Of a DNA stretch of 60,427 nt, positions 1 through 60,427 are shown piece by piece. Both the position numbers and the translations under genes were made by a program. Origin of the DNA: a virus. Position 1 is the stretch's first letter. Every line of letters starts with the position of its first letter. Location of the stretch: the IMG/VR virus record IMGVR_UViG_3300007734_000733, positions 1 through 60,427 of that record, one strand, 5' to 3'. Below the pieces are notes generated by a model. That model saw only the letters and a list, made by a program, of their open reading frames with translations, had not been told where the DNA came from and ran no database searches.

Positions 1-127
1 ATTCCGGTGACCTTATCGCCAATATCCTCAAACGCGGCACGAAGGGCTCTGCCAAGATGCCCCGCTGAACCCGTGATGAGAACCTTACGTGCTGCCATTA
101 GAAATTCTCCATATTCCATCTATACCA
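1..127. repeat. Left copy of 127-bp terminal direct repeat
   Basis: This stretch is identical to 60301-60427. Joining the two copies gives a circle of 60,300 bp. It contains the first 33 codons of the SDR gene that is intact at the right end (its ATG falls at position 98) and the last codons of the dehydratase gene ending at 85. Genes run across the junction without interruption, so it is an assembly overlap on a circular or circularly permuted molecule and not an insertion or a transcription signal. Confidence 0.93.
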
Positions 128-1002
128 GACGGAGTTACATTTTCGGTTTCGGTGAACAACTGTTCCGTTAGTCTCTCGCCGGGGCGCAGGCCGGTTATCT
201 CAATCTCAATTTCCGTTCCAGGCGTTTTGCCTGACAGTCGGATCATGTCCCGCGCTAGGTCCATGATCTTTACAGGATGGCCCATGTCCAGAATGTAAAT
301 CGCCGGTTCCCCCGTTGCGGCTTGAAGCACTAACTCAACCGCCTCATCAATCGACATGAAGTACCGCTCCATGCTCTCATGGGTCACCGTAAGCGGTCCG
401 CCTTTAATAAGCTGGCGCTCAAATAAAGGTACAACCGAGCCGGAAGAGCCAAGTACGTTTCCGAACCGCACGGCGGTATAACGGGCACGGCGGCAAATAT
501 TCTCTGCTATTTCCTTCGTCTTACCCATGTAGCTGGTCGCATTGACGGCCTTATCAGTCGATATCAGCACCATCCGGTATACTTTGTGCCTGCTACACGC
601 CTGAACGACGTTGAGCGTGCCGGTTACGTTTGTTTTGAAAGCTTCGTTAGTATTACGCTCGACCAGCGGTACATGCTTCATCGCAGCGGCATGAAACACA
701 ACTTGCTCGCTATCGCTATACATGAAGTTCTCAACAGATTCAGCATCTCTCACATCGGCATATATGGCCGTCGCGCCGGGGAGTTGCTCGCTGATCGAGT
801 ACAGATTGAACTCACAGTTATCTACCAACACTAACTCGCTAGGCTTGAAGCTGTTGACTTGGCGAGATAGCTCCGAGCCAATAGAGCCCCCAGCGCCCGT
901 GATGACGACGCGCTTTCCGTCCAGCATCTTGCTGACGGCAGCGCGGTCACGGACTACAGCACGGCGCGGCAAAAGGTCGCCTAGATCAATGGCACGGATC
1001 AT
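85..1002 (-). CDS. NAD-dependent nucleotide-sugar 4,6-dehydratase (CapD/WbpM C-terminal type, LegB-like)
   Basis: A 305-residue extended SDR enzyme. The NAD-binding glycine motif TGAGGSIGS lies at residues 35-43, preceded by the typical DLLPR segment of soluble WbpM/FlaA1/CapD catalytic domains. STDK is at 148-151 and the active-site MxxxK (Met159, Lys163) replaces the usual YxxxK, as in UDP-GlcNAc 4,6-dehydratases. There are no membrane helices, so it is the stand-alone cytosolic form. The expected reaction is UDP-GlcNAc (or GDP-GlcNAc) to the 4-keto-6-deoxy sugar, the first step toward legionaminic, pseudaminic or bacillosamine-type sugars. Its ATG overlaps the stop of the neuB-type gene by four bases (ATGA). 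The stereochemistry (LegB versus PseB) cannot be decided from sequence alone. The neighbouring 2-epimerase favours the legionaminic branch. Confidence 0.88.
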   Translation of the reverse strand: MIRAIDLGDLLPRRAVVRDRAAVSKMLDGKRVVITGAGGSIGSELSRQVNSFKPSELVLVDNCEFNLYSISEQLPGATAIYADVRDAESVENFMYSDSEQVVFHAAAMKHVPLVERNTNEAFKTNVTGTLNVVQACSRHKVYRMVLISTDKAVNATSYMGKTKEIAENICRRARYTAVRFGNVLGSSGSVVPLFERQLIKGGPLTVTHESMERYFMSIDEAVELVLQAATGEPAIYILDMGHPVKIMDLARDMIRLSGKTPGTEIEIEITGLRPGERLTEQLFTETENVTPSGIDGIWRISNGST

Positions 1003-2389: not shown

Positions 2390-2538
2390 TTCTTGGCCTT
2401 ATCCCTGTCGATCTTCTCAACACAGGCTTCATTAAAGAACCGGCTGCGCTCATATGGCGTTACAAAATCATCAATCTTCTTCAACAAATCCGGCGTAATA
2501 GTGATGTTGATCCTTAGCTTTTTTACGTGCTTAGGCAT
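2386..2538 (-). CDS. Small ribbon-helix-helix (Arc/CopG-like) protein
   Basis: A 50-residue basic protein. A short amphipathic strand (RINITITP) is followed by two predicted helices, the pattern of Arc/MetJ/CopG-type DNA-binding dimers. Its ATG lies eight bases inside the 3' end of the acyltransferase gene and its TGA overlaps the ATG of the cytidylyltransferase, so it is translationally embedded in the sugar operon. It could autoregulate the operon. No antitoxin partner is visible next to it. Confidence 0.65.
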   Translation of the reverse strand: MPKHVKKLRINITITPDLLKKIDDFVTPYERSRFFNEACVEKIDRDKAKK

Positions 2539-3034
2539 GTTTCACCTTGAAGATATCCTTGATGACGGATCGCTCTGTTGGCTTCCAGCTACAAACGGAA
2601 CGGGTCTTGTGATCCGATTTCTTCCGTTCTTCTAAGAACGGAAACACTACAGAGTTGTCCGGTATATCGACGTTCTGCACCACCGTATTGGCGGTGATGA
2701 ATACGTTGTTGCCGATCTTGGTATTGCCCAGCACCTTCGCGCCGGGGAACAAAACGACGCCCTTACCAAGTACGGGCCGGTTGCCGTCAATGTCAGACCC
2801 GACACCCACGTTCTGGTAGACGCAAAGGTAATCACCATACGTAGCGCGTCCCAGAACCGTGCCAACGGGATGCACCAACATCACGTTCTTAGGCAACACG
2901 ACTTCGTAATAAAGCTCACAGCCGTGTTCGGCGCGGATACGCTGGTAGTAGCGTTCAGCCATTTTAAGATCGCTGTCCTTCCACATATTGTAAGCGACAC
3001 GATAAAGCTGAAGGCATTGATCGTCTAAGTGCAT
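2531..3034 (-). CDS. Hexapeptide-repeat acyltransferase (serine acetyltransferase-like fold; LegH candidate)
   Basis: 167 residues. A helical N-terminus (about 1-50) is followed by a left-handed beta-helix of imperfect hexapeptide repeats (about 55-130) and a basic tail. The repeats resemble CysE-type and sugar O-/N-acetyltransferases. In a legionaminic pathway the step after the aminotransferase is acylation of the 4-amino group by a hexapeptide enzyme, so this gene, adjacent to the DegT aminotransferase, is the natural LegH candidate. It overlaps the aminotransferase stop by ten bases. The acyl donor (acetyl-CoA presumed) and the acceptor atom are inference. Confidence 0.72.
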   Translation of the reverse strand: MHLDDQCLQLYRVAYNMWKDSDLKMAERYYQRIRAEHGCELYYEVVLPKNVMLVHPVGTVLGRATYGDYLCVYQNVGVGSDIDGNRPVLGKGVVLFPGAKVLGNTKIGNNVFITANTVVQNVDIPDNSVVFPFLEERKKSDHKTRSVCSWKPTERSVIKDIFKVKHA

Positions 3035-4113
3035 ATTTTTTCCACAGCGTCTAAGACCGCCTCCACATCGTTATCGCTCATCGTTGGATACACAGGCAGC
3101 GACAGCGTGCGTTTCCCAACCGCGTCGGCCTGGGGGCAAGGCAGGGCGTTTTTATTAAAAACCGCCTCACGGCCAATGTTGGGGCAACCACCCAACCGCG
3201 CAGCTACACCCATGTTCTGCAACTCAACCATCTTGCGGTCGCGGTCATCCACAAATGCTATGTACATATACCGGCCGTGCGAATGGCCGTGCGGGACTGG
3301 GATACCGCCGAGAATGCCGTCATATACCGCCGCAATATGATTGCGCCGGTTTACCCATTTCTCAAGTTTTGCAAGCTGCAACCGGCCAATGACGGACTGC
3401 ATCTCGGTCATACGCAGGTTTGTGCCGAACTCCTCAACCGTCCATTGGAACTGGGTCATGTCCTTAGAGCCGACCATCTGATACCGACCGTGATCGCGGC
3501 GGGCTCCCATACGACGATGCAACAGCGCGTTGTTGGTAATCACCATGCCACCCTCGCCGCCGGTACTCATGGTCTTGCCAACGCAGAATGAGAAGCAGCC
3601 GATATCGCCAAACGTACCGACATGCTGCCCGTCAATGCGCGTGCCGTGGGCGTGGGCGCAGTCTTCAATTACACGGATGTTATGCATGTCAGCCCACTTG
3701 CAGATAGCCGCCATGTCACATGGTAGCCCCGCATAATGGACGACAATCACAATCGCAGTCCGGTGGGTCCGTCTGGCTTCCAGGGCTTCAACCGTGACAT
3801 TCAATGTCGCAGGATCAATGTCCGCCAGAACAACCCGCGCATTAGCCGTAATAACCGCGCTCGCAGTCGCCATAAACGTCCGGCATGGAACGATGACTTC
3901 AGACCCGGGAACAAGCCGCAGGCCATGCAGCGCCACTTCCAGCGCCGTCGTGCCGTTGGTGACCGCGAGGGCGTGCTTCGCTCCGGTATAAACGGCGAAC
4001 TCACTCTCAAACGCTTGCCCGTGAGAGCCCGTCCAATAATTCGTCTTACCTGAGCGAAGCACGCTAGCGACGGCGCTGATTTCGTCTTCAGAGTGATGCG
4101 GCCACAGAGTCAC
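3025..4113 (-). CDS. PLP-dependent sugar aminotransferase (DegT/DnrJ/EryC1/StrS; LegC-like)
   Basis: 362 residues from a GTG start at 4113, chosen because the reading frame upstream is shared with a small zinc-ribbon gene whose TGA overlaps this GTG, and a purine-rich GGAAG lies just upstream. Family blocks are NGTTAL (53-58), IEDCAHAHG (149-157) and the PLP Schiff-base lysine in FSFCVGK (Lys180), followed by GGEGGM. These enzymes transaminate 4-keto or 3-keto nucleotide sugars using glutamate. Next to a 4,6-dehydratase, a hexapeptide acyltransferase and NeuA/NeuB homologues it most likely makes the 4-amino-6-deoxy intermediate of legionaminic acid. The sugar substrate is inferred from context. 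Confidence 0.88.
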   Translation of the reverse strand: MTLWPHHSEDEISAVASVLRSGKTNYWTGSHGQAFESEFAVYTGAKHALAVTNGTTALEVALHGLRLVPGSEVIVPCRTFMATASAVITANARVVLADIDPATLNVTVEALEARRTHRTAIVIVVHYAGLPCDMAAICKWADMHNIRVIEDCAHAHGTRIDGQHVGTFGDIGCFSFCVGKTMSTGGEGGMVITNNALLHRRMGARRDHGRYQMVGSKDMTQFQWTVEEFGTNLRMTEMQSVIGRLQLAKLEKWVNRRNHIAAVYDGILGGIPVPHGHSHGRYMYIAFVDDRDRKMVELQNMGVAARLGGCPNIGREAVFNKNALPCPQADAVGKRTLSLPVYPTMSDNDVEAVLDAVEKICT

Positions 4114-4250
4114 TTTACTTCCTTCACATAAAACGCGCCGCAGTACGGACAGCCACGGCCAGCAGACCCGGCCCACTCTCGCCCACAGCCCAAGCCCCAC
4201 CGCGCATTCTCAGGGTGTTCGCGCAGACAGATGAACTTGGCGGGGGTCAT
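4110..4250 (-). CDS. Small zinc-ribbon-like protein
   Basis: A 46-residue protein with two cysteine pairs: single cysteines near the N-terminus and centre and a clear CPYC near the C-terminus, the look of a compact zinc ribbon. Its ATG overlaps the stop of the 55-aa gene upstream (ATGA) and its TGA overlaps the GTG of the aminotransferase, so all three appear translationally coupled. No function can be assigned. The precise stop/start overlaps on both sides are the main reason for believing it is a gene. Confidence 0.6.
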   Translation of the reverse strand: MTPAKFICLREHPENARWGLGCGREWAGSAGRGCPYCGAFYVKEVK

Positions 4251-5529: not shown

Positions 5530-6183
5530 TCAAACGCTCCGAACAGAAGCGCCCTCGCTGAATAACCAGCTACGCAGCTTAATCGGTGATTTGTCGGTGA
5601 AGAAAAACATGGACGAAATCGCAACCGCGTCAGCCCCAGCTTTGAACGCCTGAAGCGCGTGATCCAATTTACCGCAGCCTCCGGCAACGATAACCGGAAC
5701 ATCCCATTTGCGCTTCAATACGTCCAAGTCGAATCCCTTGCCCATTCCGTCGCGGTCGATGTCCGTTAGCAAAACCTCACCCGCGTAGTCAGGCACATCT
5801 TCTACACACAAGGTGTGATAGTCAATAGGCCAGACCACCGCCTGCCGACCATATTTTTGGGCAATGGCTTTGCCAAGTTCGCGGTCTTTAACCACCACTT
5901 TATCCGCGCCGCAGTCTTTGATTAGTTCGTTCACTTGGCTCATAGAATGAATAGACCCAGCCACGGTAACGGGGGTGAACACATCGGCGGTCACATCCCG
6001 AATCATGGCTGGGTCAATTACGCCCAAGTCGCAGAAGTACATCTCATCGACACGTAGGTCTTCATATGTACGCGCCGTAGACACGACGTTACCGGCCGTT
6101 CGGCGGTTGGTCGTGAACTGCTTGTACTTAACGAGCTTGCCGTCCTCGATTAGAAACTTCGCAATGATACGGCGTTTCAGCAC
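5530..6183 (-). CDS. HisF-like TIM-barrel protein (WbuZ/HisF2 type), partner of sugar amidotransferase
   Basis: 217 residues from a GTG start that overlaps the preceding stop (TAGTG). The N-terminus (RRIIAKFLIEDGKLVK) matches the HisF opening strand, and a phosphate-loop-like VIVAGGCGKLDHA segment is found in the C-terminal quarter, as in imidazole-glycerol-phosphate synthase cyclases. No histidine genes surround it. Instead an N-acetyl-sugar amidotransferase lies two genes upstream. In LPS and flagellin systems (WbpG-HisH2-HisF2, PseA/LegA-type) such HisF copies channel ammonia for converting a sugar N-acetyl group to an acetamidino group. That role is inferred from pairing. Shorter than HisF (about 255 residues). 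Confidence 0.8.
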   Translation of the reverse strand: MLKRRIIAKFLIEDGKLVKYKQFTTNRRTAGNVVSTARTYEDLRVDEMYFCDLGVIDPAMIRDVTADVFTPVTVAGSIHSMSQVNELIKDCGADKVVVKDRELGKAIAQKYGRQAVVWPIDYHTLCVEDVPDYAGEVLLTDIDRDGMGKGFDLDVLKRKWDVPVIVAGGCGKLDHALQAFKAGADAVAISSMFFFTDKSPIKLRSWLFSEGASVRSV

Positions 6184-6728
6184 TACGGCGTCGGCCCACC
6201 CACCGGATCAACCGCACCGGCCGGTGATTGGGTCATCACCTCAGTACCGGCAGCAACCGCAACGCCAGTCGGGCTTTCGTTCATCGGGCCTTGGCAATCA
6301 GCCAGCTTCGCTCCGTTGACCTTCTTGGGTCGCACAGTACATGGAAAGCTGAACATATTGCTCATGCCACCACCAGCCGCTGTGGTTGTCGTGAACTTGC
6401 GGAACGCCGCCGGGGTATCAGCCCAAGTCGGCGCTTGCGGGAAGCTAGAGCGCGGCTGAAACAAGCTCCAGACTTGATTTTTGCCGGGAGCGGTGCAGGA
6501 GTTATTCATCAAGTCCATGTCGGCCAACGCAGGGCCGCGCAGTACGGGGCAGACCGAAACGCCCAACGGGAACACCTTGCCGTTGACGGTGATGGTCTGG
6601 CCGGGGACAGGGGTTGTGGGACTGGCCGCGCACAGGGCGAACTCGCCTGTGCAGACCTGAATTGTCAAAGCGTGCGCGGGGGCCGTAAACGTCAGCGCCG
6701 CAGCAATCAGTAGTTTTTTCATATCCAA
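6183..6728 (-). CDS. Secreted phage protein with Sec signal peptide
   Basis: 181 residues. A lysine pair and a hydrophobic stretch (about 4-18) end in a typical AHA cleavage site near residue 20, so the mature protein should reach the periplasm. Six cysteines in the mature part could form disulfides. Similar Gly/Pro/Thr-rich secreted proteins of this size are found in other podovirus genomes without a known role. It is embedded between the amidotransferase and the HisF-like gene and overlaps both, so it is expressed with the sugar genes. It could be a superinfection or envelope factor, but nothing in the sequence proves that. Confidence 0.72.
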   Translation of the reverse strand: MDMKKLLIAAALTFTAPAHALTIQVCTGEFALCAASPTTPVPGQTITVNGKVFPLGVSVCPVLRGPALADMDLMNNSCTAPGKNQVWSLFQPRSSFPQAPTWADTPAAFRKFTTTTAAGGGMSNMFSFPCTVRPKKVNGAKLADCQGPMNESPTGVAVAAGTEVMTQSPAGAVDPVGGPTP

Positions 6729-7855
6729 TCTTTCATGTCTGGAAGTTCTGAACCAGCCACAATGGCTGACTTATCAAAGTCCCACGGATCAACCACATGG
6801 CTCAAGGCCATCCCATAGAAGTCATCACGGGTAATCCCAACCGTCTGTAGAAACCACCCCAGGCTGGCCGGTTCTTTGCCGTCGTATTGCTGGGCTAAGG
6901 CGGCCCCCGCCGCCCGATCCATACGGCCATGCCGTATCTCAATGTTGGCCAGATGGTTCGTCCGGCCAAAACCGCGCTTGATGTACTTCAGCCAATCCCT
7001 AACGCCCTGGAACTGGCACTCAATCTTCTCGTAATCAAACTGCGGTGGGATGCCCTCGACCACATCACCCTCCCAGCCAAGGTGGTCCTTAATCAACGCC
7101 ACTTGATTGCGGGTGTCCCACCGCACGTAGTCGCCCAGACAGATGCTTTGAACGCCAAGCGCGTCTAACTCGGCCTTGGGCGGGTATGCGTGCCAGTGCA
7201 AATCGCGCCGGTCCAGGCTGGGGTTAGCGTCCTTAATGAACTCCCACATATCGTCAGCCGTCATGCCGAGATTCATCGCCCGGTTAAACCGCACCTCGTC
7301 AACATTCTCCTTCTCGGTGGGGTCGAGCCAGGATTGGTATTCCTTCAGTGACTCACCCCAGAATATAAGCGGCGTGTTGAACTTAAGCGCCATGTGCATG
7401 GGGAACGAGTAGACTCCCGTATGACAGTGCCAGCACGAATCGCCCTTACGGGAAAGTGCCTCCAGCATAGTGGCCTGGACGACCTTCCAGTTCGGCTTGA
7501 AGTCCAAGACTTCAACGCCCAACTGCTTGAACACCCGCGCATTGTTCTTCTCCAACTGTGGCCGAGTTCCCCAGTGATTGTACCGCACAACCAAAGGCCG
7601 CAACCGTAGCTGCGTCACCACATACCAAAGCTGGTAGGTGCTATCTTTGCCGCCGCTGAATGGCACGATGCAATCGTACTGGCCGTTGCGTTGACGAGCC
7701 TGGGTAATGATGGAGTGTAACTCCATCATGCGTTCGTTCCAGTCCACCGCCGTCAGCTTATGGTCTACCTGCACGCAGACAGAACACGCGCCAGCCGCGT
7801 TGAATGAAATGGTGTCGGCAGTCTCGGTGTTGAGACAGCGGGTGCAGGATTTCAT
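6719..7855 (-). CDS. N-acetyl sugar amidotransferase (WbpG/PseA/LegA family, PP-loop ATPase)
   Basis: 378 residues. CxxC pairs at residues 4-7 and 24-27 form a likely zinc knuckle, the PP-loop ATP-pyrophosphatase motif SGGKDS is at 67-72, and another Cys/His cluster (SCWHCH) follows. This is the layout of WbuX/WbpG/PseA enzymes, which adenylate a sugar acetamido group and replace oxygen with ammonia to give acetamidino (amidine) sugars such as acetamidino-legionaminic, pseudaminic or ManNAcA derivatives. A HisF-like protein is two genes downstream. The HisH-type glutaminase that normally supplies ammonia was not found in the genome. The start overlaps the previous stop (ATGA). Confidence 0.88.
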   Translation of the reverse strand: MKSCTRCLNTETADTISFNAAGACSVCVQVDHKLTAVDWNERMMELHSIITQARQRNGQYDCIVPFSGGKDSTYQLWYVVTQLRLRPLVVRYNHWGTRPQLEKNNARVFKQLGVEVLDFKPNWKVVQATMLEALSRKGDSCWHCHTGVYSFPMHMALKFNTPLIFWGESLKEYQSWLDPTEKENVDEVRFNRAMNLGMTADDMWEFIKDANPSLDRRDLHWHAYPPKAELDALGVQSICLGDYVRWDTRNQVALIKDHLGWEGDVVEGIPPQFDYEKIECQFQGVRDWLKYIKRGFGRTNHLANIEIRHGRMDRAAGAALAQQYDGKEPASLGWFLQTVGITRDDFYGMALSHVVDPWDFDKSAIVAGSELPDMKDWI

Positions 7856-10831: not shown

Positions 10832-10848
10832 CCAAAGGAATCGGAATC

Positions 10849-11736
10849 ATGACTAAATCCAGTCTCTCAGAATCTGCGCTGCTCGTGTCTCTAACCGTGT
10901 CCATGTGGAGTGGCGTCAAGCTTGATAAGTCACTGGCCACTGAGGTCGAATTGCAACACGGCATGGGTGCGAACAGCGGGAAATACTCCAAGAATCTGCT
11001 GACAAAAGACGCGTTGAAAAACGCTATCGCAGCCAGTGGTGCGCTGCGCACGTACGTGCGCGAACAGACCAGCCCTTGGCTGGACGGTGGCGTGCGCATC
11101 TTGGCTGCCGTTAACTACGCCAAGGCGAACGAACGCATCACGAATCTCATCGATGACTTTGAAGCAGCTGCGCAGAATCTTTGCGCACGCCTGCCGGAAG
11201 AAAAGGCTGCCGCACGTGTGCGTTTGAACGGCAGCTATCGCGACTCTGATTACCCTGATGATCTGCGCGCTAAATTTAGCGCAGCTGTGCGCTATTTCCC
11301 GCTGCCCGACGAGCGCGACTTTCGAGTCCAGGCAGGCGAAAAGATCACAGCAGCAGAACGTGCGACATTGCAGGCTGGTTTTGCCAAGGGGCTACAAGAG
11401 GCCGAGTCCGCTGCCATAGCTGACATCTGGGGTAAGCTTGCTGGCCCTGTGGCTGCCATGGCTGGGAGCCTTGTGGACTACACTCCCGCGACAGCGACCA
11501 CCAAGGCTGTGGCCCCCTTCCGTGACAGCCTAGTCAGCAATATCCAAAACATTGTGGACCTGATTCCTAACCTAGACTTTAGCTCTAATCCTGACCTTGA
11601 GCGCGTGCGGCAGCAGGTACGCGATACCCTGCTGGTCTGCACGCCAGCAGCCCTGCGCGACGACTCAACCCTGCGCGCTGATGTCGCAGCCAGGGCTGCG
11701 AAGATCGCTGCTGATATCGCTGAATTGACAGCATAG
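10849..11736 (+). CDS. DUF3150 family protein
   Basis: 295 residues, mostly helical. The opening SVSMWSGVKLDK..ATEVELQHG followed by G.YSKNLL and REQTSPWLDGG matches the DUF3150 family as I remember it. It lies 17 bp after the MoxR gene and 5 bp before the VWA gene with its own purine-rich leader (AAAGGAATCGG), so the three are an operon. DUF3150 proteins have no assigned activity. Constant pairing with MoxR and VWA suggests a substrate adaptor or complex subunit. Confidence 0.75.
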   Translation: MTKSSLSESALLVSLTVSMWSGVKLDKSLATEVELQHGMGANSGKYSKNLLTKDALKNAIAASGALRTYVREQTSPWLDGGVRILAAVNYAKANERITNLIDDFEAAAQNLCARLPEEKAAARVRLNGSYRDSDYPDDLRAKFSAAVRYFPLPDERDFRVQAGEKITAAERATLQAGFAKGLQEAESAAIADIWGKLAGPVAAMAGSLVDYTPATATTKAVAPFRDSLVSNIQNIVDLIPNLDFSSNPDLERVRQQVRDTLLVCTPAALRDDSTLRADVAARAAKIAADIAELTA

Positions 11737-11741
11737 GGGCC

Positions 11742-39821: not shown

Positions 39822-40978
39822 TAACTGAACATCTGCACATAAGCAAATGCGTCTAGTGTGCTTGGCACATTAAGATTAGTCCGCGCTCCAGAAGCTGTAG
39901 ACGCGCCCGTGCCGCCCTGCGAAATCGGTATCGGCGTTCCGAGGCCCAACGTCTCGGCAAGGATTACATCAGTTCCATTAGAATAAAGAATTGATCTGGT
40001 CGATGAATTTGTTATCGAAACGCCGGGAGTTGCCTGAGTTACTGTCCTAACGCCGAACACAAAAGCGCCGGTCGTGGAGTTATCAACCCAATACTGCTGC
40101 ACAGTAGACGGCACGATAATGTCAAGGTTGCCAGCCAAGGCCCCCGTGAACTTGATCGCCGTCTTATTAAGCTCAAGACCACTTAAGGTGTAAGTGCCGC
40201 TCAACCCAGCAACATTGATGCTCAAATAACTAAACGAAAAAACCGGGCTTTGGCCGAACCCGATTGTATACATATTGCTACCGTCAGTAATGACAATAAC
40301 CGTATCACCCGGATTCAACGTCTTAGTCGCTCCGCCGTCAATCGTGCCGCTCGGCGGCGTAAGCACAAGCGTGCCAGTGCCCTGGTTGGTGATGTTGCAG
40401 AACCAGCCGCTCGTAAGCGTAGCCAGGGCGCTAAAGTTGAATATACCGGCTCCGCCAGTCCAAATCACAAGCGCGGCACGCTGTGCCGTCGTCATGGTCT
40501 GCGGCGTTGAACTGTAAGAGAACCCGCATGGGTACTCTTGGTTCAGCGTAGTGGTGATGGCCTTGATACCAAGGCCAGCCAGTGCGCTGGGAGTTGCCGA
40601 CGATGTGCCAGCGCCCATTTGGTACGTGCGGTAATTGCCGGAGGCGGTCGTGTTATCAGTTACATATGCTGACCAAGCCGCACCAGTCGTCGCCGTAAGG
40701 ACGGTGTTGCCAGCGTTATCAAGAATCGTGAAGGCATTGCTGCCGACGTTGTTGAAGAGCGAGTTGTAACCGACCGACACCTGATTGGCTGGAGGCAACT
40801 TAAACGTCAGCGAACCAGCGGTGAAGCTAATGTCATTGATAGCAGCAACGACGTTCTGGCTAGTTGACGCCTCAATAGGCCATACGGACGTAATGCTGGT
40901 AGACGCCGTATAAGCTTTATAGCTGGGCTGCGCTGGGTCTAGCGTTCCGCCGCCGAATACTTGTGTAAAGCTGGTCAC
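39821..40978 (-). CDS. Tail fibre/spike-type protein
   Basis: 385 residues, almost entirely beta-strand-forming, Thr/Gly/Asn/Ser-rich. The C-terminal QGGTGASTASGARTNLNV matches the repeated GGTGA motif of phage tail fibres. It probably contacts the host surface or forms a fibre attached to the tail hub (product of the next gene). Starts with an ATGA overlap with the adaptor gene. Confidence 0.74.
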   Translation of the reverse strand: MTSFTQVFGGGTLDPAQPSYKAYTASTSITSVWPIEASTSQNVVAAINDISFTAGSLTFKLPPANQVSVGYNSLFNNVGSNAFTILDNAGNTVLTATTGAAWSAYVTDNTTASGNYRTYQMGAGTSSATPSALAGLGIKAITTTLNQEYPCGFSYSSTPQTMTTAQRAALVIWTGGAGIFNFSALATLTSGWFCNITNQGTGTLVLTPPSGTIDGGATKTLNPGDTVIVITDGSNMYTIGFGQSPVFSFSYLSINVAGLSGTYTLSGLELNKTAIKFTGALAGNLDIIVPSTVQQYWVDNSTTGAFVFGVRTVTQATPGVSITNSSTRSILYSNGTDVILAETLGLGTPIPISQGGTGASTASGARTNLNVPSTLDAFAYVQMFS

Positions 40979-41637
40979 GCCGTATTCCTTTTCTGAGCGC
41001 GGTCGAGAATCTTCTGCAAGTCCTCGCTATTTAATCCTGACATATCTCTGTCGTAAGCCTGCGACCACGCGGCTGCTTGCTCAGGGTTCTTAAGATACGT
41101 GAACGCCTCAACCAGCGTGCCGTGGAGAAGGGCGTTAGGTGCGTACTCAGTCAGCCAATTCGTTTGCGTTGTGTCATCGAGCAACGGGAGAAGTTGCCAG
41201 TAATTGATCTCATACGGAAATGTAGTAGATGGCGTCGGAGCAAAAATAAGGTGATTGTAGTCGTAGTCCGCGTAATATTTCGGCGTCCCAGTCTGTGTGT
41301 CGTCCGGCCAGTAGCTGCGAATATATTCATATGAACGTGGTAGCAACGTAACGCGGGTATTAAACGTAGTGGCTGTGCCAATGTTTGTACCAACATTAAT
41401 GCTGACGGTTTCGCGCCACCGATCCGGCTTCTGAACAACACCAACAGATGTTGTAAAAGCCGTGTTGACGTTATTGATAAAACCTTGAATTTTAAGCTCA
41501 CGCGCAATCTGGCGCTCTTTCAGATTGATGAACCCAGGAAGTTGAGTATTAAACTGAGTATCAACTGACGAGCCGCCGCGTTCGCAGTAGCTGCGAACGT
41601 CGCTTTGCAAACTCGTAAACGTCATCGCGGTCGGCAC
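40975..41637 (-). CDS. Head-tail adaptor (gp6-like phage adaptor)
   Basis: 220 residues. The N-terminal helices (QSDVRSYCERGGSS, LINLKERQIARELK) followed by TVSIN..strand, the LPRSYEYIRSYWP segment and a C-terminal helical stretch with AFTYLKNPEQAAAW fit the adaptor proteins that sit under the portal ring. P22-like phages have comparable proteins. Its 3' end is joined to the tail-fibre-type gene by an ATGA overlap. Confidence 0.7.
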   Translation of the reverse strand: MPTAMTFTSLQSDVRSYCERGGSSVDTQFNTQLPGFINLKERQIARELKIQGFINNVNTAFTTSVGVVQKPDRWRETVSINVGTNIGTATTFNTRVTLLPRSYEYIRSYWPDDTQTGTPKYYADYDYNHLIFAPTPSTTFPYEINYWQLLPLLDDTTQTNWLTEYAPNALLHGTLVEAFTYLKNPEQAAAWSQAYDRDMSGLNSEDLQKILDRAQKRNTA

Positions 41638-44298: not shown

Positions 44299-44693
44299 TA
44301 CGGATTATTCCCGCACAGGAAGTTAAAACCACCGTTTGTTGCGTCTTGCGGGTTCTTGCCGGTAATGATGGGCGTGTCGTAATCTGCAATAATGAAATAC
44401 ATAGGTTCCGGGTTAAGCGCGTAGTTCTCTGGCCGGGGGTTCTTGATGGGAACCGGATCAGGCGGCAGAACCAATTTAGAATAATATGGGTTTGGAACGT
44501 CATCGCAAACGCCGCAGACGTACAGCTTGGTCCCCACCGGCACAGACCCGCCGCGATACTCCATTTTCTCAACCAAATGGGCGTGCATCGTCCACATGCC
44601 GCAGCCGTCGCAAACGGCGACGGAGCGAGGGCTTTTGACATCAATATCAATCGGTGCCCTAGAACGGCGATGAAGCGGCGATAACCGGCTCAT
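44298..44693 (-). CDS. Zinc-finger late protein of unknown function
   Basis: 131 residues from the ATG at 44693 (ATGA overlap with the gp4-like gene). CDGCGMW and CGVCDD are two CxxC pairs about 34 residues apart that can bind one zinc. The rest is Pro/Tyr/Asn-rich. Similar zinc proteins accompany P22-gp4-like genes in some podoviruses. Function unknown. Confidence 0.65.
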   Translation of the reverse strand: MSRLSPLHRRSRAPIDIDVKSPRSVAVCDGCGMWTMHAHLVEKMEYRGGSVPVGTKLYVCGVCDDVPNPYYSKLVLPPDPVPIKNPRPENYALNPEPMYFIIADYDTPIITGKNPQDATNGGFNFLCGNNP

Positions 44694-45382
44694 GCCCACC
44701 TACCCGATAACAAACTGGGTTTAATGACCGTGGGCACCTTCTCCCGGTCCTCCGCAGCGGCAGCTTGGTAGGCTATATCAGCCAGTCCATGCAACGGCGC
44801 AGCGCGTTCTGGAGCCCACTTCACGGCTAGTCTAGCAGCCATTCCGGCTGCCATGGCATCAAACCAACGCTGCGGTACATCCAGCGTATTGGTCGGGTTG
44901 CCGGGGTCTTGGGTGAAATTCATGGTGTAGTAGTACAGCGTGTAGGCCGAGCTATCCGGCGTCGGCCATAGGTACATTGTCGGCGTAATGGTGCGCTCAA
45001 AGTAGTACTGAGTCGGCGGGGCTTGCTGCTGCTTGTTGGGGATAGACGCATAATCCGCCCTACTGATGGGCGAAAGCATAATGTCCGTGTTGATGCCGCC
45101 GCTGGTTGTGCGGCGGTAAACCTGGAAGACTTCCACGTTCTTTGAATTTAACGTCAGGCTCTGCTGGCCTTGAGTTAGGGCTGAGTTGTTAAGGGTAACC
45201 TCCCAAAGGTTGACCCCCTTATTAGCCCATTCAGAACATAGGTAACTAAGGCTACGAATGGCGCTTTGTACGTCATTAGCCGACAGGTCTGAAGCCTCAC
45301 GGCCCATACGCTCGTAAGCCTCGACGATTACGCTATCAAGTTCGGTGTTTACGCCAAAGTCATACGTGCCGGTAAGCGTCAT
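44690..45382 (-). CDS. P22 gp4-like head completion/adaptor protein
   Basis: 230 residues. ELDSVIVEAYERMGREASDL followed by AIRSLSYLCSEWANKGVNLW is the gp4 signature (helix, RSLN-type helix, then W..G.NLW). It caps the portal after packaging and connects to the tail. Family context agrees with the gp10-like gene downstream. Confidence 0.78.
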   Translation of the reverse strand: MTLTGTYDFGVNTELDSVIVEAYERMGREASDLSANDVQSAIRSLSYLCSEWANKGVNLWEVTLNNSALTQGQQSLTLNSKNVEVFQVYRRTTSGGINTDIMLSPISRADYASIPNKQQQAPPTQYYFERTITPTMYLWPTPDSSAYTLYYYTMNFTQDPGNPTNTLDVPQRWFDAMAAGMAARLAVKWAPERAAPLHGLADIAYQAAAAEDREKVPTVIKPSLLSGRWA

Positions 45383-45637
45383 TTAACAAGCCCACCTTTT
45401 GCGAGCGGCTTTTCCACGTTCGCCAGTCCACCCCTGCGACCTAGCACAAAAACTTTTTTTACGGCCAGACTCCGCCTCACTTTTGGGGTGTGGCGCTGGG
45501 GGCTTTAGATTGCTTCCCGTGCGCCGATTGATGGACGCCCTACCCTTGGCAGTCAAACCAGCGCCTTTAGCCACAGACAGCTTGTAGCCGCCTGAAACCG
45601 TCATCCCGCGCATCTGGTCTTTCTTGCCACGGGCCAT
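45383..45637 (-). CDS. Small basic DUF6321-like protein
   Basis: 84 residues, rich in Lys, Arg and Gly. The blocks LTAKGRASINRRTGSNL and RKKSFCARSQGWTGERGKA are those of a small basic family frequent in environmental phages (DUF6321-like). Two related basic proteins lie beside the terminase. Possibly DNA-binding and virion-associated; unproven. Confidence 0.68.
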   Translation of the reverse strand: MARGKKDQMRGMTVSGGYKLSVAKGAGLTAKGRASINRRTGSNLKPPAPHPKSEAESGRKKSFCARSQGWTGERGKAARKRWAC

Positions 45638-45642
45638 AGGGG

Positions 45643-46299
45643 TTAGTACCCTGATTGGTTAAAGTTGACGTTCATTGTGCCAGTAGCTGTAGTGCTGGCA
45701 AGGAAGATGGCGCGATACGCTGTGGCGTTGTCCGAGTAAGTAAGGCTGGTTGAAGTTCCAATCGCAGACAAGCCAGCGGCGGTAACTGCAACAGGAGTTG
45801 TGGTCGTAGAAATTGGATCAAAAGTGCGTTGAATTGTAACCAAAGAAGTTGTGGCTGTATTCATAGTGATTGCCACGGACACAGCTACAGGATTCTGGAA
45901 AGTATCAACTATAGCCCAGCGGCTGGTGCCGGTAATACCGACACCAACCGTGAATGAACTACTTGCTAAAGTCCCAACTGAGATTGCCGTGACTTTGAAG
46001 AACTCAGCCACAGTAGTGGCTGTAGCATTATTTGGCCCAGTAAGCGTTGTAGATACAGCATACCCAGACGTATCAATGCCCGTGATCGTAAAGGTCGCCG
46101 TGCTGATATTGCCGGTTGATGTGACCGTAAGTGTCCGTTGAAGGCCGGGCGCTACAGTCACCGCAAAGGGCGTTACACCAGCGTTAAAATTAGATAGCGA
46201 CCCATTAAGAACAAGGGACTGATCTGTGGCCGTAGTCGTTTGCGTAGCGCAAACGCCATTAACCGTTTGTGTGGGGAAGTTGAATATTACTGGGCGCAT
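45643..46299 (-). CDS. Ser/Thr-rich beta-sandwich virion protein, paralogue A
   Basis: 218 residues, more than 35 percent Thr plus Ser, all-beta. A block of about 50 residues (TVTSTGNISTATFTITG.D, then TTLTGP..) is clearly related to one in the gene at 47240. The DUF115-like gene is inserted between these two paralogues, and the 5' end of this gene overlaps it by 41 bp. Candidate head-decoration protein, and, if the phage glycosylates its virion, a plausible acceptor (inference). Confidence 0.68.
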   Translation of the reverse strand: MRPVIFNFPTQTVNGVCATQTTTATDQSLVLNGSLSNFNAGVTPFAVTVAPGLQRTLTVTSTGNISTATFTITGIDTSGYAVSTTLTGPNNATATTVAEFFKVTAISVGTLASSSFTVGVGITGTSRWAIVDTFQNPVAVSVAITMNTATTSLVTIQRTFDPISTTTTPVAVTAAGLSAIGTSTSLTYSDNATAYRAIFLASTTATGTMNVNFNQSGY

Positions 46300-47167
46300 T
46301 TGCTACTCCAAGAGAAGTGTCATGGCCGTTTGTTAATGGGAGTGGCCCCCCCAACATAGCGTCGTAAAGTTTATGTTCTCCGCCAATTCCAGCCGCCTGG
46401 GGAGCGGCAATCGGTTGGATAATGGAAGGAGTAGACACCTGAATGGTCTGGAACTGAGCGGCCAGTTTGGGTGGGTTACGGACACGTTCTTCGTGTACCA
46501 GAATCTGTTGTGCGGTCATAATCTTGCCGCCCATTCCAGGCGGATGATTGGGGTCGGAGAACCAACCGTAGGGCTGCTGGCGGTTGTATATATCCATCAG
46601 GGTCGAGTTCTGGGCAACGGCAAATCTGATGCCACGCTGGGTTCCGATACCCATGTAAAACTCACAACACGCCCGGCCAGATTCGGCCAGATGCACATCT
46701 GGATACGAAAAATCGCAGCCAAACAGGCCGATTTCGTTAAAGCCATCAGCCATTGCCAGCGCAATAGCGTAAGAAACGCTGGTATTGAAATAAGTAATGC
46801 CGCCAAACGAAGCCATAACCCGAGCGAACGGGTAAACGACATGGTTCGGATAACGGGGGTGCGGCCACGATGTATAGAACGGGGTGTTGTCCTTCAGCGC
46901 GTATTCGCACATATCGCGGACAACGGGGTGGCCCAAATAGGGGTGAACGGGGTCAACGTGGATAATGCGGTCGCAGCGAATCTGTGCGCCCATATAGTTA
47001 ATGCACCACGTTTCTGCATTCTGAAGAATTTCAGGGCGGCCTTCCATAAGCTGCGCCTGGAAGAAGTCCTGTCGGCTAGAACCCATAGCAACGATATTGA
47101 CCGCCTTACGGGCCGGGGCGTGCATGATCGCTGTAGGTGCTGCTTGTGCTAGATGAGCTTCTGTCAC
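46259..47167 (-). CDS. DUF115-like protein, distant relative of Maf/sialyltransferase-type enzymes
   Basis: 302 residues. An opening VNIVAMGSS nucleotide-loop-like motif, a central WCINYMGAQIRCDRIIHVDP block and then ITYFNTSVSYAIALAMADGF, EIGLFGCDFSYPDVHLAE, GRACCEF and MGIGTQRGIRF resemble the DUF115 core as found in Maf flagellin glycosyltransferases and, more distantly, GT42 sialyltransferases. The conserved D-F-S, H and Cys residues could be active-site parts. Phage members are usually left unannotated and found near head genes. Here it stands between two Ser/Thr-rich virion proteins and in a genome that makes a CMP-nonulosonic acid, which makes a glycosyltransferase role attractive but unproven. 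Confidence 0.6.
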   Translation of the reverse strand: MTEAHLAQAAPTAIMHAPARKAVNIVAMGSSRQDFFQAQLMEGRPEILQNAETWCINYMGAQIRCDRIIHVDPVHPYLGHPVVRDMCEYALKDNTPFYTSWPHPRYPNHVVYPFARVMASFGGITYFNTSVSYAIALAMADGFNEIGLFGCDFSYPDVHLAESGRACCEFYMGIGTQRGIRFAVAQNSTLMDIYNRQQPYGWFSDPNHPPGMGGKIMTAQQILVHEERVRNPPKLAAQFQTIQVSTPSIIQPIAAPQAAGIGGEHKLYDAMLGGPLPLTNGHDTSLGVANAPSNIQLPHTNG

Positions 47168-47196
47168 GGGTTATTTCCTTGCCTAGTTACCGTCAA

Positions 47197-47230
47197 TAAG
47201 AAACACCGGGGCATGACGGACATGCCCCGG
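47197..47230 (-). terminator. Terminator after virion paralogue B
   Basis: A perfect 10-bp stem CCGGGGCATG/CATGCCCCGG with a 5-base loop, followed on the minus strand by TGTTTCTTATT. Placed between 47240 (stop) and the DUF115-like gene, so it separates high-level head transcription from the downstream tail genes. Confidence 0.88.
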
Positions 47231-47239
47231 CGATTAACA

Positions 47240-47992
47240 TTAAGCAGAATACGGCGTTACGCCATACGTATTTTCTTTGGTGTCGTTACCAGCCAGAGTC
47301 CCGTCGTTCGGGGTAACAAACTGGAAGGTGACGTACCTGGAGCCGTTAGCCAGCACAGTCGTAGCCAATGCAACCGTTCCGCGAACATCAGCGGTGGTCG
47401 CCGTAGCAACGCCCGTAGCAGCAAAACCAGCGGTATAAGTCGGAGCAACTGACGCCGAGCCACCGTTGATATAAGCCCCAAGACCTTCGCCCACGTTAGT
47501 AAGGCGATAAGGCAAGCCGTAGGTATCCGATGTACCAATCGCCAAAAGGCCAGTGGCCGCGCCATTCGCAGATGCGGTGGTGACGGTCTTAAAAGCCGAA
47601 AGCGTAGTAACAACAGAACCAGAATTGCCGAAGGTATTGCCGGTCGGGCCGGTGAGGGATGCAGTAAGCGACGCACCATACGCATCCGTACCTTGGAAGG
47701 TAAATGTCGTCGTTGACATATTGCTGGAAGCCGTAATGGACACGCAACGCGGAACGTCAAAGGTAGCAACGCCGCTGCTGACCAAGGCACCCGTGCTGGT
47801 CAGCGTACCAGCAATTGCCGAAGACGCATAAAACACGCCGCTGGCCAAAGAAGTAGACGCTGTACCGAGTTGGTAAACGTAAGTCTGAGTCAGTGGGACG
47901 CCATAAATTTCGTCCTCAGCATACCCACTCGGGACGGTAGCGCGGTTGTAAGACGCACGCCCCATTTTGACGCTATCAAAAAAAGTTGTCAT
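47240..47992 (-). CDS. Ser/Thr-rich beta-sandwich virion protein, paralogue B
   Basis: 250 residues, beta-rich, Thr/Ser/Ala/Gly-rich. It shares the SITASSNMSTTTFTFQG.D..TASLTGPTG block with paralogue A at 45643. Flanked by terminators on both sides, so it is a separately punctuated, probably abundant, capsid component, for example a decoration protein. No enzyme motif. Confidence 0.7.
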   Translation of the reverse strand: MTTFFDSVKMGRASYNRATVPSGYAEDEIYGVPLTQTYVYQLGTASTSLASGVFYASSAIAGTLTSTGALVSSGVATFDVPRCVSITASSNMSTTTFTFQGTDAYGASLTASLTGPTGNTFGNSGSVVTTLSAFKTVTTASANGAATGLLAIGTSDTYGLPYRLTNVGEGLGAYINGGSASVAPTYTAGFAATGVATATTADVRGTVALATTVLANGSRYVTFQFVTPNDGTLAGNDTKENTYGVTPYSA

Positions 47993-48083: not shown

Positions 48084-48989
48084 TTAGGTAGCGCCCGAGC
48101 TACCATAAGCACCGCGAGAGTTCGACCAGCCGAACGAGTACCGTTCGATGGCCTTCGCCAACAGGTTGTCGCTCGTAAAGTCAGTGAAAACGTCAGTCTC
48201 AAGAGCTTCACGGACGTAGTGTTTCAAGCCGTTGGGGGCGTCGGTCATAAGGAACCAAGCGTTCGTGTCAGTCAGGAAGTGATTGACGCGATAACCCTGC
48301 GGCACGGCACCAATGTTATAGATCGCATTGATGTCGTTGTTCGCGGTGCCGGTGCGGAACTGCGAGTGCAGGATACGATCAGCCGTAAACTGAAGCTGCG
48401 GCGGAACGATCAGTTTGGTGGGCTTCGTCATCGTGATGAGGCCCGCTTGGTCGCGGAACTGCGAGATGGTCACAATGGCGTCTTGCAGCGACGATTCGTT
48501 CAGATCGACCTGAACGCTCGGCGTGTTGGCAAACGTGCCGGTGTCAATCGGGTGCGCCGTCGAGAACAGAGAAACACCGTCGCCGCCGGGGAACGAGGTC
48601 GAGAAGCCGTTGTTCAGCACCGAAGCGCCGTTGACTTCTTTGCTCTGCAACATCGAGTTACGCAGCGACTGAGCCTGCTGCGGGAACTGCGACTCGTAAA
48701 GGTTATCCTTCATCGCTTGGCGGGTAATCATAAAGCCAACGCTGGTATAGCGATGGTAGTAGGTGCTGATGACGCGCTGTCCCATGTCTTGAAACTGCGT
48801 CGGAGCGCCTTCACCCTTAATCGAAGCGAGGCCCAACAGCTTCATTTCGACTTCGATTTCAACAGCCTTGTCGGAGGTATGGGTGCTGAAAATCTCAGTG
48901 TATTCTGCCGGGTACATCGGATAGTCGCCGAAAACTTCTGCCAAGCCGGGGCGAAGAAGCTGCTGAATCGAACTGGTATTAATGGTCAT
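48084..48989 (-). CDS. Major capsid protein (HK97-like fold inferred)
   Basis: 301 residues. Motifs EYTEIFSTHTSDKAVEIEVE, GQRVISTYYHRYTSVGFMITRQAM and the LFSTAHP/FLTDTNAWFL segments are typical of the phage Mu-gpT-like and related coat proteins, and the size is normal. The order terminase, portal, scaffold, decoration-like and then this gene fits a coat gene, and a strong terminator follows. No protease gene was found, so maturation is probably non-proteolytic (inference). Confidence 0.8.
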   Translation of the reverse strand: MTINTSSIQQLLRPGLAEVFGDYPMYPAEYTEIFSTHTSDKAVEIEVEMKLLGLASIKGEGAPTQFQDMGQRVISTYYHRYTSVGFMITRQAMKDNLYESQFPQQAQSLRNSMLQSKEVNGASVLNNGFSTSFPGGDGVSLFSTAHPIDTGTFANTPSVQVDLNESSLQDAIVTISQFRDQAGLITMTKPTKLIVPPQLQFTADRILHSQFRTGTANNDINAIYNIGAVPQGYRVNHFLTDTNAWFLMTDAPNGLKHYVREALETDVFTDFTSDNLLAKAIERYSFGWSNSRGAYGSSGAT

Positions 48990-49013: not shown

Positions 49014-49613
49014 TTACGGACGCGGCGTTCCAGCAGAACGCTGGCCATTGTTGATCTGAACAACCCAGTTGGCGAACGCGCCAACGGCGTTGCCAACACG
49101 CGGATCAAGCGACGTAATTCGCATGTTCAGGCCAGACGCAGTACTCGCAGTGGCATTATTCAACGTAACGGCAGATAGACCCGTGCGAGTGCTGCCAGCC
49201 GTGTAAACGAAGTTCGCATTAAGGCCCGGAGCCGCAGAGGTGAGCGGAGTGCCCGCAGCGCCCGTAGAATCGCCCTCAGTCATCGTGTATTGCGCCATCG
49301 GATCGTCGATAACCAACGCGATGGGGGTGTTGCCCGTAAGGACGTTACCAGTCGCACCAGCCCACTGATTCGTGAACTGCCATACGCCGCTGGCGTCCTG
49401 GTATTTGCAGCCCTGGAAAGCGCCCAGGACCGGAGAGGTCGCCGCACCGCGAACGATGATGCCCACGGTGGAAAGCGCCACCGGGTCGTTCTGGAAGATC
49501 GACTGGCCGCCCGTCGCCGGGAGGTTGTACTGGTTGGTGATACCATTGAAGGTAACGCCGTTACCGCTATTAAGCGGCTGGAGGCCGAAGCCACCGCTTG
49601 CGCCGTAAGCCAT
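49014..49613 (-). CDS. Putative capsid decoration/head protein
   Basis: 199 residues, all-beta and Thr/Ala/Gly/Asn-rich, immediately upstream of the major capsid gene in transcription order. Position and composition match head decoration or minor capsid proteins. It does not share the paralogue block of 45643/47240. Its ATG lies just after the regulatory gap 49614-49899. Confidence 0.7.
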   Translation of the reverse strand: MAYGASGGFGLQPLNSGNGVTFNGITNQYNLPATGGQSIFQNDPVALSTVGIIVRGAATSPVLGAFQGCKYQDASGVWQFTNQWAGATGNVLTGNTPIALVIDDPMAQYTMTEGDSTGAAGTPLTSAAPGLNANFVYTAGSTRTGLSAVTLNNATASTASGLNMRITSLDPRVGNAVGAFANWVVQINNGQRSAGTPRP

Positions 49614-58702: not shown

Positions 58703-58862
58703 TTGTAACCTTATTCTTTTCGGAGGTTAAAAATCTGCGTATCGCTAATTCAATGACATACTTTTTGTACAGCAATTTATCATCGCAAAACTTATCCAAT
58801 TCGTCGATCAAATCACTGGCAATTCTAATGTTCAATTGAGACAGATTGTTTTTAGTTTTCAT
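58680..58862 (-). CDS. Small ribbon-helix-helix protein
   Basis: 60 residues. LNIRIASDLIDELDKFCDDK and KKYVIELAIRRFL read as the strand-helix-helix of Arc/MetJ repressors. It overlaps the 2-epimerase gene by 11 bp. With the similar gene at 2386-2538, the sugar cluster has two of these candidate regulators. Confidence 0.66.
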   Translation of the reverse strand: MKTKNNLSQLNIRIASDLIDELDKFCDDKLLYKKYVIELAIRRFLTSEKNKVTNVASIKL

Positions 58863-59808
58863 TAAGCCACTTCAGAATGCTCGCGGATATAACATCAGCC
58901 GCGCCGCCTTGGTAGATCGGGTTCCAGCCGTTGGAGAGCGTTAGGGCATACTCAATGTCATCAACGGAACCAAACACAGACTGAGCCATTGGGCGTCCCA
59001 GTTGTCGGTTGCCGATATTGATGGACGGCACTCCAACCCAAGGCGCTTCAATCACGCCCGCCGAAGAGTTGCCGACGACCAAAGACGCACGCTGCATCGC
59101 CTGGATGTACTCAGAATGGGAGAGTGTCTTAACAACCTTAGCAAACGGTCGTTGCTCGCAGAAGATTTGAATCAGTTCGCCAATCTCTTCGCCACCGGGA
59201 TCGTTGTTAACGCCTGTGAATAGGATGTTATATCCCGCCGTGTACCATGTACTAAGTGCCGCCAGCATCTGTTCACACTGGCCTACGCCACGGTCTGGCA
59301 ACCGCGTCTCGGGATGATATGTAACCAGCATCTCTTTCGTATCTCTCCTGGCCGTGTCTCCGCCAACACCATCCAATCCAGGCGCGCCGCTAACTGTGAT
59401 GCTATCTGGATCAATGCCCATGCCTTTCAACTTACTGGAAAAGTCATCTGTAGCCACAAAATGCAACGTCGCCATGTGACTAATACTGTGACGCATGGCA
59501 TTATCAAAAGCGCCAGTAGTGGTTTCCCCACCATGAATATGGGCCACGGGTATGCCGATAAACATAGCCGCCAACGCAGCCGCCAGCGTCTCATAACGAT
59601 CCCCTAATACAACGACAAGTTTCGGATTGCTGGATTTGTATACAACAGTGAAAAATGTCATTGCCCGCGCAACAGCAACATCGGGGGACATGCCATCGGA
59701 TACAAAGCGCGAGACGGAACACCCCGGCATGGCTTTGATAACAGACTCCAACGGCCCGTCTTCGGCGCGCGAGTTGCTGACAACGACTACATCTGAAAAA
59801 TCTACCAC
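58852..59808 (-). CDS. neuC: UDP-GlcNAc 2-epimerase (hydrolysing), NeuC/LegG-type
   Basis: 318 residues. LGDRYE (68-73), HIHGGETTTGA (90-100), RHSISHM (106-112, usual RHaitKms) and a C-terminal VGNSSAGVIEAPWVGVPSINIGNRQ are typical of hydrolysing 2-epimerases making ManNAc or its legionaminic analogue. It is shorter than common NeuC (about 370-390), mostly from a compact N-terminus. In the six-step legionaminic route this enzyme (LegG) supplies the synthase (NeuB-type) substrate. It overlaps the SDR gene upstream by seven bases. Confidence 0.88.
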   Translation of the reverse strand: MVDFSDVVVVSNSRAEDGPLESVIKAMPGCSVSRFVSDGMSPDVAVARAMTFFTVVYKSSNPKLVVVLGDRYETLAAALAAMFIGIPVAHIHGGETTTGAFDNAMRHSISHMATLHFVATDDFSSKLKGMGIDPDSITVSGAPGLDGVGGDTARRDTKEMLVTYHPETRLPDRGVGQCEQMLAALSTWYTAGYNILFTGVNNDPGGEEIGELIQIFCEQRPFAKVVKTLSHSEYIQAMQRASLVVGNSSAGVIEAPWVGVPSINIGNRQLGRPMAQSVFGSVDDIEYALTLSNGWNPIYQGGAADVISASILKWLNEN

Positions 59809-60398
59809 GCGCTCAAACCCCCATCCACCATCAACACTTGGCCGGTGATGTACCGGGCCGCATCGCTACACAGAAACAACACCGGGCCTACAATGTCGTC
59901 TTCCGTAGCCATTCGATTAAGCGGAACCCGCCAGGAGTAACGATCAACAAAAGCCCGTCCCTGGCCGCGCTCAATGCCGCCGGGACACACACAGTTCACA
60001 CGCACAGGAGCCAACGTCGTGGCCTGATGGCGCGTCAGAGCGACCATTGCGCCCTTAGAAGCCACGTACCATTCCGGCGTCTGTTTAACGCTGGTGTCTT
60101 TATAAAGGCGCGCATCACTGCCCAACGTGCCGTAAATGCTGCCAATGTTGACGGCGCACATTTTAGCAGAGGTGACCAGCGTATGATGGGCTGACCACTC
60201 TTCTACTTTGGCATTACAGATAACGACATCGTAATTATCGGGGAGAATGATTTTTTCCACAAAATCCAAGTCACAATTAATCTCTGCATCTTTCAAATCA
60301 ATTCCGGTGACCTTATCGCCAATATCCTCAAACGCGGCACGAAGGGCTCTGCCAAGATGCCCCGCTGAACCCGTGATGAGAACCTTACGTGCTGCCAT
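59802..60398 (-). CDS. Short-chain dehydrogenase (PtmA-like, sugar cluster)
   Basis: 198 residues from the ATG at 60398 (equal to position 98), chosen over one at 60419 because GGAG stands eight bases before it. TGSAGHLG (9-16) is the NAD-binding loop, NIGSIYG contains the active Ser, and Tyr111-Lys115 (YVASK) the catalytic pair. The C-terminal ITGQVLMVDGGLSAW is typical. In Campylobacter, PtmA of this type belongs to the legionaminic acid/flagellin modification pathway. It lies in the duplicated terminal sequence, so part of it appears at both ends of the window. Confidence 0.84.
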   Translation of the reverse strand: MAARKVLITGSAGHLGRALRAAFEDIGDKVTGIDLKDAEINCDLDFVEKIILPDNYDVVICNAKVEEWSAHHTLVTSAKMCAVNIGSIYGTLGSDARLYKDTSVKQTPEWYVASKGAMVALTRHQATTLAPVRVNCVCPGGIERGQGRAFVDRYSWRVPLNRMATEDDIVGPVLFLCSDAARYITGQVLMVDGGLSAW

Positions 60399-60427
60399 TA
60401 GAAATTCTCCATATTCCATCTATACCA
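60301..60427. repeat. Right copy of 127-bp terminal direct repeat
   Basis: Identical to 1-127. Joining the two copies gives a circular map of 60,300 bp in which the SDR gene and the dehydratase gene overlap by 14 bases, exactly as neighbouring genes do elsewhere in this operon. Confidence 0.93.

Follow-up and report, generated by a model that had tools for sequence, protein, structure and literature searches.

A compact GT42/DUF115-fold protein, putatively a virion-protein glycosyltransferase, in the structural module of a phage carrying nonulosonate genes

In the DNA of a freshwater phage analysed here (IMG/VR record IMGVR_UViG_3300007734_000733, all 60,427 nucleotides, hereafter the window), a gene for a 302-aa protein lies between two genes for Ser/Thr-rich proteins, in a trio that comes immediately after the major capsid gene, and the same genome carries a set of genes for synthesis of a CMP-activated nonulosonic acid (Table 1). 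The question raised by this locus is whether the phage glycosylates its own particle, as an earlier note had suggested. The reading that we prefer, for which we would claim slightly less than an even chance, is that the protein is a stand-alone GT42/DUF115-fold glycosyltransferase, made late in infection, whose role would be to link a CMP-activated ulosonic acid to hydroxyls of a virion protein.

Table 1. Coordinates of the window genes discussed in the text.
Feature	Position	Strand	Remark
UDP-sugar 4,6-dehydratase, PF02719, nonulosonate cassette	85..1002	-	
NeuB-family nonulosonate synthase, short form, 230 aa	999..1691	-	
NeuA/PseF-like CMP-sugar cytidylyltransferase, PF02348	1691..2389	-	
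Hexapeptide acetyltransferase	2531..3034	-	
DegT/PseC/LegC-like aminotransferase	3025..4200	-	
WbuZ/HisF-like protein, sugar amidation	5530..6183	-	
WbuX N-acetyl sugar amidotransferase	6719..7855	-	above NCBIfam cut-off
Second SU10-adaptor-like protein	40975..41637	-	
SU10-type adaptor protein	44690..45382	-	
84-aa DUF6321 protein, conserved neighbour	45383..45637	-	
218-aa Ser/Thr-rich putative virion protein, paralogue 2	45643..46299	-	
302-aa GT42/DUF115-fold protein, stand-alone, putative glycosyltransferase	46259..47167	-	GTG start
250-aa Ser/Thr-rich putative virion protein, paralogue 1, adjoins major capsid gene	47240..47992	-	
Major capsid protein, Mu gpT-like / phrog_371	48084..48989	-	
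199-aa conserved head-module protein, phrog_37556	49014..49613	-	
NeuC-type hydrolysing UDP-GlcNAc 2-epimerase	58852..59808	-	above NCBIfam cut-off
Short-chain dehydrogenase/reductase (SDR) of cassette	59802..60419	-	

Fold, conserved residues and distribution of the 302-aa protein

The three open reading frames of the locus are all present, and the central one is under purifying selection (dN/dS 0.07-0.16 between the window and its relatives), which identifies it as a real protein gene. Its core comprises residues ~20-215, followed by a variable, low-confidence C-terminal tail. The resemblance to DUF115 proposed in the earlier note was weak by sequence and clear by fold. PF01973 (MptE-like/DUF115) scored 15.3 bits against the protein (E 0.017), under its curated gathering threshold of 34.6 bits, and the genome search gave it 16.6 bits, with E 2.3e-4 calculated for a single genome; PF06002 (Pfam CST-I) did not match at E <= 1, and no second Pfam domain was found. 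Sequence searches of the PDB alone were not significant (E 0.6-3.5), although nearly all of the rows that they returned were CstI or CstII. A PHROG named alpha-2,3-sialyltransferase was matched weakly by one relative, and the enzyme domain of distant members gave nothing significant in Pfam or PHROGs.

The AlphaFold model, for which an alignment of 36 family members was supplied (relatives 29-92% identical to the window protein), has a confident core, with pLDDT of 87-96 in most core blocks. In a Foldseek search of the PDB with this model, the GT42 sialyltransferase CstII was the top match (E 2.6e-5, probability 1.00), all 11 matches at E <= 1e-3 were CstII chains (E 2.6e-5 to 7.9e-4), and MptE of Methanocaldococcus jannaschii, an archaeal DUF115 protein (8sd5), came next (E 1.9e-3, probability 1.00); TM-scores to CstII were moderate (0.37-0.50). 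A DUF115-named mimivirus protein was matched in BFVD (E 1.2e-4). Profile-profile comparison of the family gave P 2.9e-6 for GT42 and P 9e-4 for Maf, against a best value of only P 0.008 among ten control alignments of other proteins from the same phages. As modelled, the 302-aa protein has the GT42/DUF115 fold, the core shared by CstII and Maf; the comparison with GT42 and Maf folds that the earlier note proposed as a check thus returned a related sialyltransferase fold, and the model suggests that the protein is a glycosyltransferase.

Residues G28, D71, P95, Y125, Y132, G149, D151, E161, G163-C166, E168, F169, D191, Y199 and G200 are shared in the family alignment, and an E-x-G-R-A-C-x-E-F signature that is absent from CstII is nearly invariant. 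In the window's lineage H158 stands ten residues ahead of E168-F169, the H-x9-E-F spacing of a CstII helix, and this spacing makes it a candidate catalytic base, the catalytic histidine of CstII being H188. The D-to-H distance is 7 residues in the phage enzyme and ~34 in CstII, and the stretch from GxDF to the histidine position is ~27 residues shorter than in CstII. Among 66 family members, histidine occupies the position in 17 and N, A, S, K or G in 49, mostly marine; some members may therefore rely on a different base or have a function other than glycosyl transfer.

A conserved-core search found relatives of the enzyme encoded in at least 561 IMG/VR viral stretches; they belong to hundreds of uncultured aquatic phages, freshwater and marine, usually without sugar genes. 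Among 50,697 deposited phage records, a relative could be recognised in just one: a gene of a Microcystis phage that adjoins the terminase genes and bears the annotation methyltransferase. One metagenomic relative (L057, 7050-8399) is fused to a type-11 methyltransferase domain. A search of 84,980 bacterial and archaeal genomes with the enzyme alignment, made through two short peptide patterns, found no relative, and the open-access literature searched contained no report of a phage DUF115/GT42 virion enzyme.

The structural module and the Ser/Thr-rich neighbours

The flanking genes are homologous and Ser/Thr-rich, as had been proposed. BLASTP aligned the two proteins at 30% identity over 103 aa; the pair scored 119, modestly above all of 500 shuffles (maximum 114), and with relatives added the profile-profile comparison reached E 1.2e-8 (probability 95.6%). 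Their Ser/Thr contents, 32.1% and 28.4%, were the top two of 26 late genes measured, followed by 26.2%, 24.4% and 22.8% in other structural genes of the window phage, so that Ser/Thr richness is not unique to the pair. The AlphaFold model of the 250-aa paralogue was unusable (pLDDT 43.5), and position and homology are what suggest that the pair are virion proteins.

The trio of paralogue, enzyme and paralogue follows the capsid gene directly, the start of the 218-aa paralogue overlapping the end of the enzyme gene by 41 nt, and the order capsid, 250-aa paralogue, enzyme, 218-aa paralogue was constant in the window's lineage wherever a contig reached that far, including relatives whose enzyme is just 49-63% identical. 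The structural module of the window carries two proteins of the SU10-adaptor family (Table 1). Marine relatives have the same structural module, but in them the enzyme comes after an SU10-adaptor-like gene, and both paralogue profiles, where detected, match one single ORF. The adaptor-like gene directly upstream of the enzyme in most marine relatives is a homologue of the one at 40975-41637 in the window. It is present at 52 of 59 distant loci, one of which (L053) has the window-type order; in the 51 spacings tabulated, adaptor and enzyme genes lie within 40 nt of each other in 48, and in 28 they overlap by four bases. Four relatives (L055, L056, L057 and L107) carry the enzyme in another kind of phage module, from which all of these neighbours are missing; in most relatives with readable flanks it is placed among capsid and adaptor genes.

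The earlier picture of a glycosyltransferase beside its Ser/Thr-rich acceptors therefore stood as regards the fixed gene order of the window's lineage and did not extend to marine relatives, where the enzyme lies outside the pair. What the enzyme follows from phage to phage is the structural module rather than the Ser/Thr-rich pair itself, and its place beside the supposed acceptors is not conserved. The two paralogues may be regarded as candidate acceptors, which is the weakest element of the proposal.

The nonulosonate cassette and its co-occurrence with the enzyme

The same 127 bases stand at both ends of the window (1-127 and 60301-60427) as a direct repeat; this terminal redundancy makes it probable that the record is a complete genome, assembled as a circle, and that the cassette is contiguous across the ends. 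The cassette shares its strand with the late genes, and the terminase follows closely. In agreement with the claim that this genome makes a CMP-nonulosonic acid, we found a nearly complete cassette of CMP-legionaminate type, with all six gene types of that pathway (dehydratase, aminotransferase, acetyltransferase, hydrolysing 2-epimerase, synthase and cytidylyltransferase). Of the six, NeuC alone exceeded its NCBIfam cut-off, as did the accessory WbuX. Given also the shortness of the synthase, the genes do not prove exactly which sugar is made. The synthase matches positions 1-254 of the 329-position NeuB model and thus seems to be without the usual C-terminal domain; the NeuB frames of relatives are comparably short (235-256 aa). 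It fits NeuB better than PseI, and this fit together with the NeuC-type epimerase favours a product of legionaminate rather than pseudaminate type, which WbuX and WbuZ suggest is amidinated.

Between WbuZ and WbuX, at 6183-6728, lies a gene for a 181-aa protein with an apparent N-terminal signal peptide and no family match; its assignment as WbuY was rejected, there being no WbuY match. The gene is conserved in two close relatives (G007 and G008) and was not found in a third (G015). A row of genes on the plus strand at 9794-13073, encoding a MoxR-like ATPase, a possible DUF3150 protein and a DUF2201 VWA/metallopeptidase-like protein, was found neither in these three relatives nor in the 62.7-kb genome G026. 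The closest bacterial relatives of WbuX (L128-L133, 56-59%) come from Rhodospirillaceae and other alphaproteobacterial MAGs and have WbuZ nearby, usually with a similar acetyltransferase; these loci are a lead to the donor of the cassette or to the host. PF01973 was not found in the six bacterial genomes carrying them, and no tRNAs were found in the window as a clue to the host.

Cassette and enzyme occur together in all four ~60-kb genomes of a genus-like group, the window and three others, and the cassette is partly visible at the end of a further record (G025). The whole cassette is absent from G026, which keeps the capsid-paralogue-enzyme-paralogue order, and none of 27 distant enzyme-bearing records, most of them fragments, has NeuB. 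The earlier note had held that many phages with the gene and no sugar pathway would refute virion glycosylation, and at the level of the family this is the pattern observed. Scans for other cassette-bearing phages reached only close relatives of the window itself. The ~60-kb group is too closely related for functional linkage to be separated from shared descent; co-occurrence is a genus-level fact that cannot by itself link cassette to enzyme. One metagenome yielded both a 27.3-kb cassette fragment (L165, IMGVR_UViG_3300009180_002325) and a 32.6-kb enzyme-bearing fragment (L013), which could derive from a single ~60-kb genome.

Possible functions and comparison with known systems

On the preferred reading, the enzyme would be made late in infection alongside the head and neck proteins and would move a CMP-activated ulosonic acid onto hydroxyl groups of a virion protein, the most likely acceptor by analogy with Maf and mycobacteriophage glycosylation. 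The window phage and its close relatives would obtain the donor, a sugar of legionaminic-acid type that may bear an amidino group, from their own cassette; relatives without the cassette would draw on a CMP-sugar of the host, for example CMP-Kdo or a host nonulosonate. Virion glycosylation, as proposed in the earlier note, is supported by the fold, by the pathway in the genome, by placement in the structural module and by the lack of a second recognisable glycosyltransferase in the part of the window proteome that was scanned (not all of the small ORFs); the missing NeuB of distant records, the unconserved adjacency to acceptors and the loss of the candidate histidine in most marine members count against it.

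Alternatively, the enzyme could use a common host nucleotide sugar on the virion while the cassette independently feeds or remodels a host-surface polysaccharide through host transferases, serving receptor masking or superinfection exclusion. Such a division of labour, which we regard as rather unlikely, would account for the distant records without NeuB and for G026, with its identical local gene order and no cassette, and it suits the likeness of WbuX/WbuZ and the acetyltransferase to Rhodospirillaceae-like bacterial loci; it sits less well with a cassette that immediately precedes the terminase, reads in the direction of the late genes and accompanies the enzyme in all four ~60-kb relatives, although that group is too close to set descent aside.

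If the enzyme is not a glycosyltransferase at all, it might share the fold but be a nucleotide-binding enzyme of another kind, an MptE-like pyrophosphotransferase or one of uncharacterised activity, that aids virion assembly or modifies a small molecule. We consider this unlikely: CstII outranks MptE by fold, GT42 outranks Maf/DUF115 by profile, and the methyltransferase fusion in L057 fits glycan modification, even though MptE is the next-best solved structure, the candidate histidine is unconserved and the family has its own nearly invariant signature that CstII lacks. Improbable, in our view, is a catalytically dead GT-fold protein that serves the virion as a structural part or as a chaperone; the compact size of the protein, its location in the structural module of most relatives and the histidine lost in marine members would agree with this, whereas the invariant polar cluster (D71, D151, E161, R164, E168 and D191) and the low dN/dS suit an active site.

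Extended beyond the window, the preferred reading of a late virion-protein glycosyltransferase would describe a large, so far undescribed family of compact GT42-fold ulosonyl/sialyl transferases for virion proteins, encoded in the head/neck module of uncultured aquatic phages, with one freshwater phage lineage making its own CMP-legionaminate-type donor and so coating its particles with a sialic-acid-like sugar; this wider proposal is tentative, and we think it somewhat more doubtful than credible. Glycosylation of phage virions is known from few systems, notably mycobacteriophages. The enzyme is missing from nearly all sequenced isolates. If the proposal is true, sugar-coated phage particles are common in nature, and the window's lineage, with a donor pathway of its own, is self-sufficient. 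A free-standing GT42/DUF115 enzyme of this small size is also a candidate for structural and glycoengineering work.

Among known systems, the GT42 enzymes CstI and CstII of Campylobacter jejuni are closest, by fold match, by a GxGxS-like N-terminal loop, by a YFN..(T/S)..Y..A.A...G..EI.L.G.DF block and, in the window's lineage, by the H-x9-E-F spacing. The phage enzyme differs in standing alone among capsid genes, in its ~18% identity in the fold alignment, in a much shorter GxDF-His region and in the histidine lost from many relatives, and the acceptor of the Cst enzymes is lipooligosaccharide. MptE, an archaeal 6-hydroxymethyl-7,8-dihydropterin pyrophosphokinase, has the Pfam family and fold in common with the phage enzyme, but its fold match is weaker than that of CstII and no pterin context was seen around the phage gene.

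Maf (PF01973) enzymes O-glycosylate Ser/Thr of flagellin with nonulosonates; in their core they are similar to CstII, and one of them can use CMP-Kdo (PMC11339370). The phage enzyme shares this core fold, with weak profile similarity, and the feature likened here is the transfer of nonulosonates onto Ser/Thr of a self-assembling filament protein. The Maf ORFs retrieved were mostly 800-900 aa with extra domains, whereas the phage protein is far more compact and below the PF01973 cut-off, and no flagellin is involved. In mycobacteriophages Che8, Corndog and Myrna, the phages' own glycosyltransferases modify capsid and tail proteins (Freeman et al. 2023, as cited in PMC12363180); the citing account mentions neither GT42/DUF115 enzymes nor nonulosonates, and the likeness lies in the precedent that it provides for phage-encoded virion glycosyltransferases.
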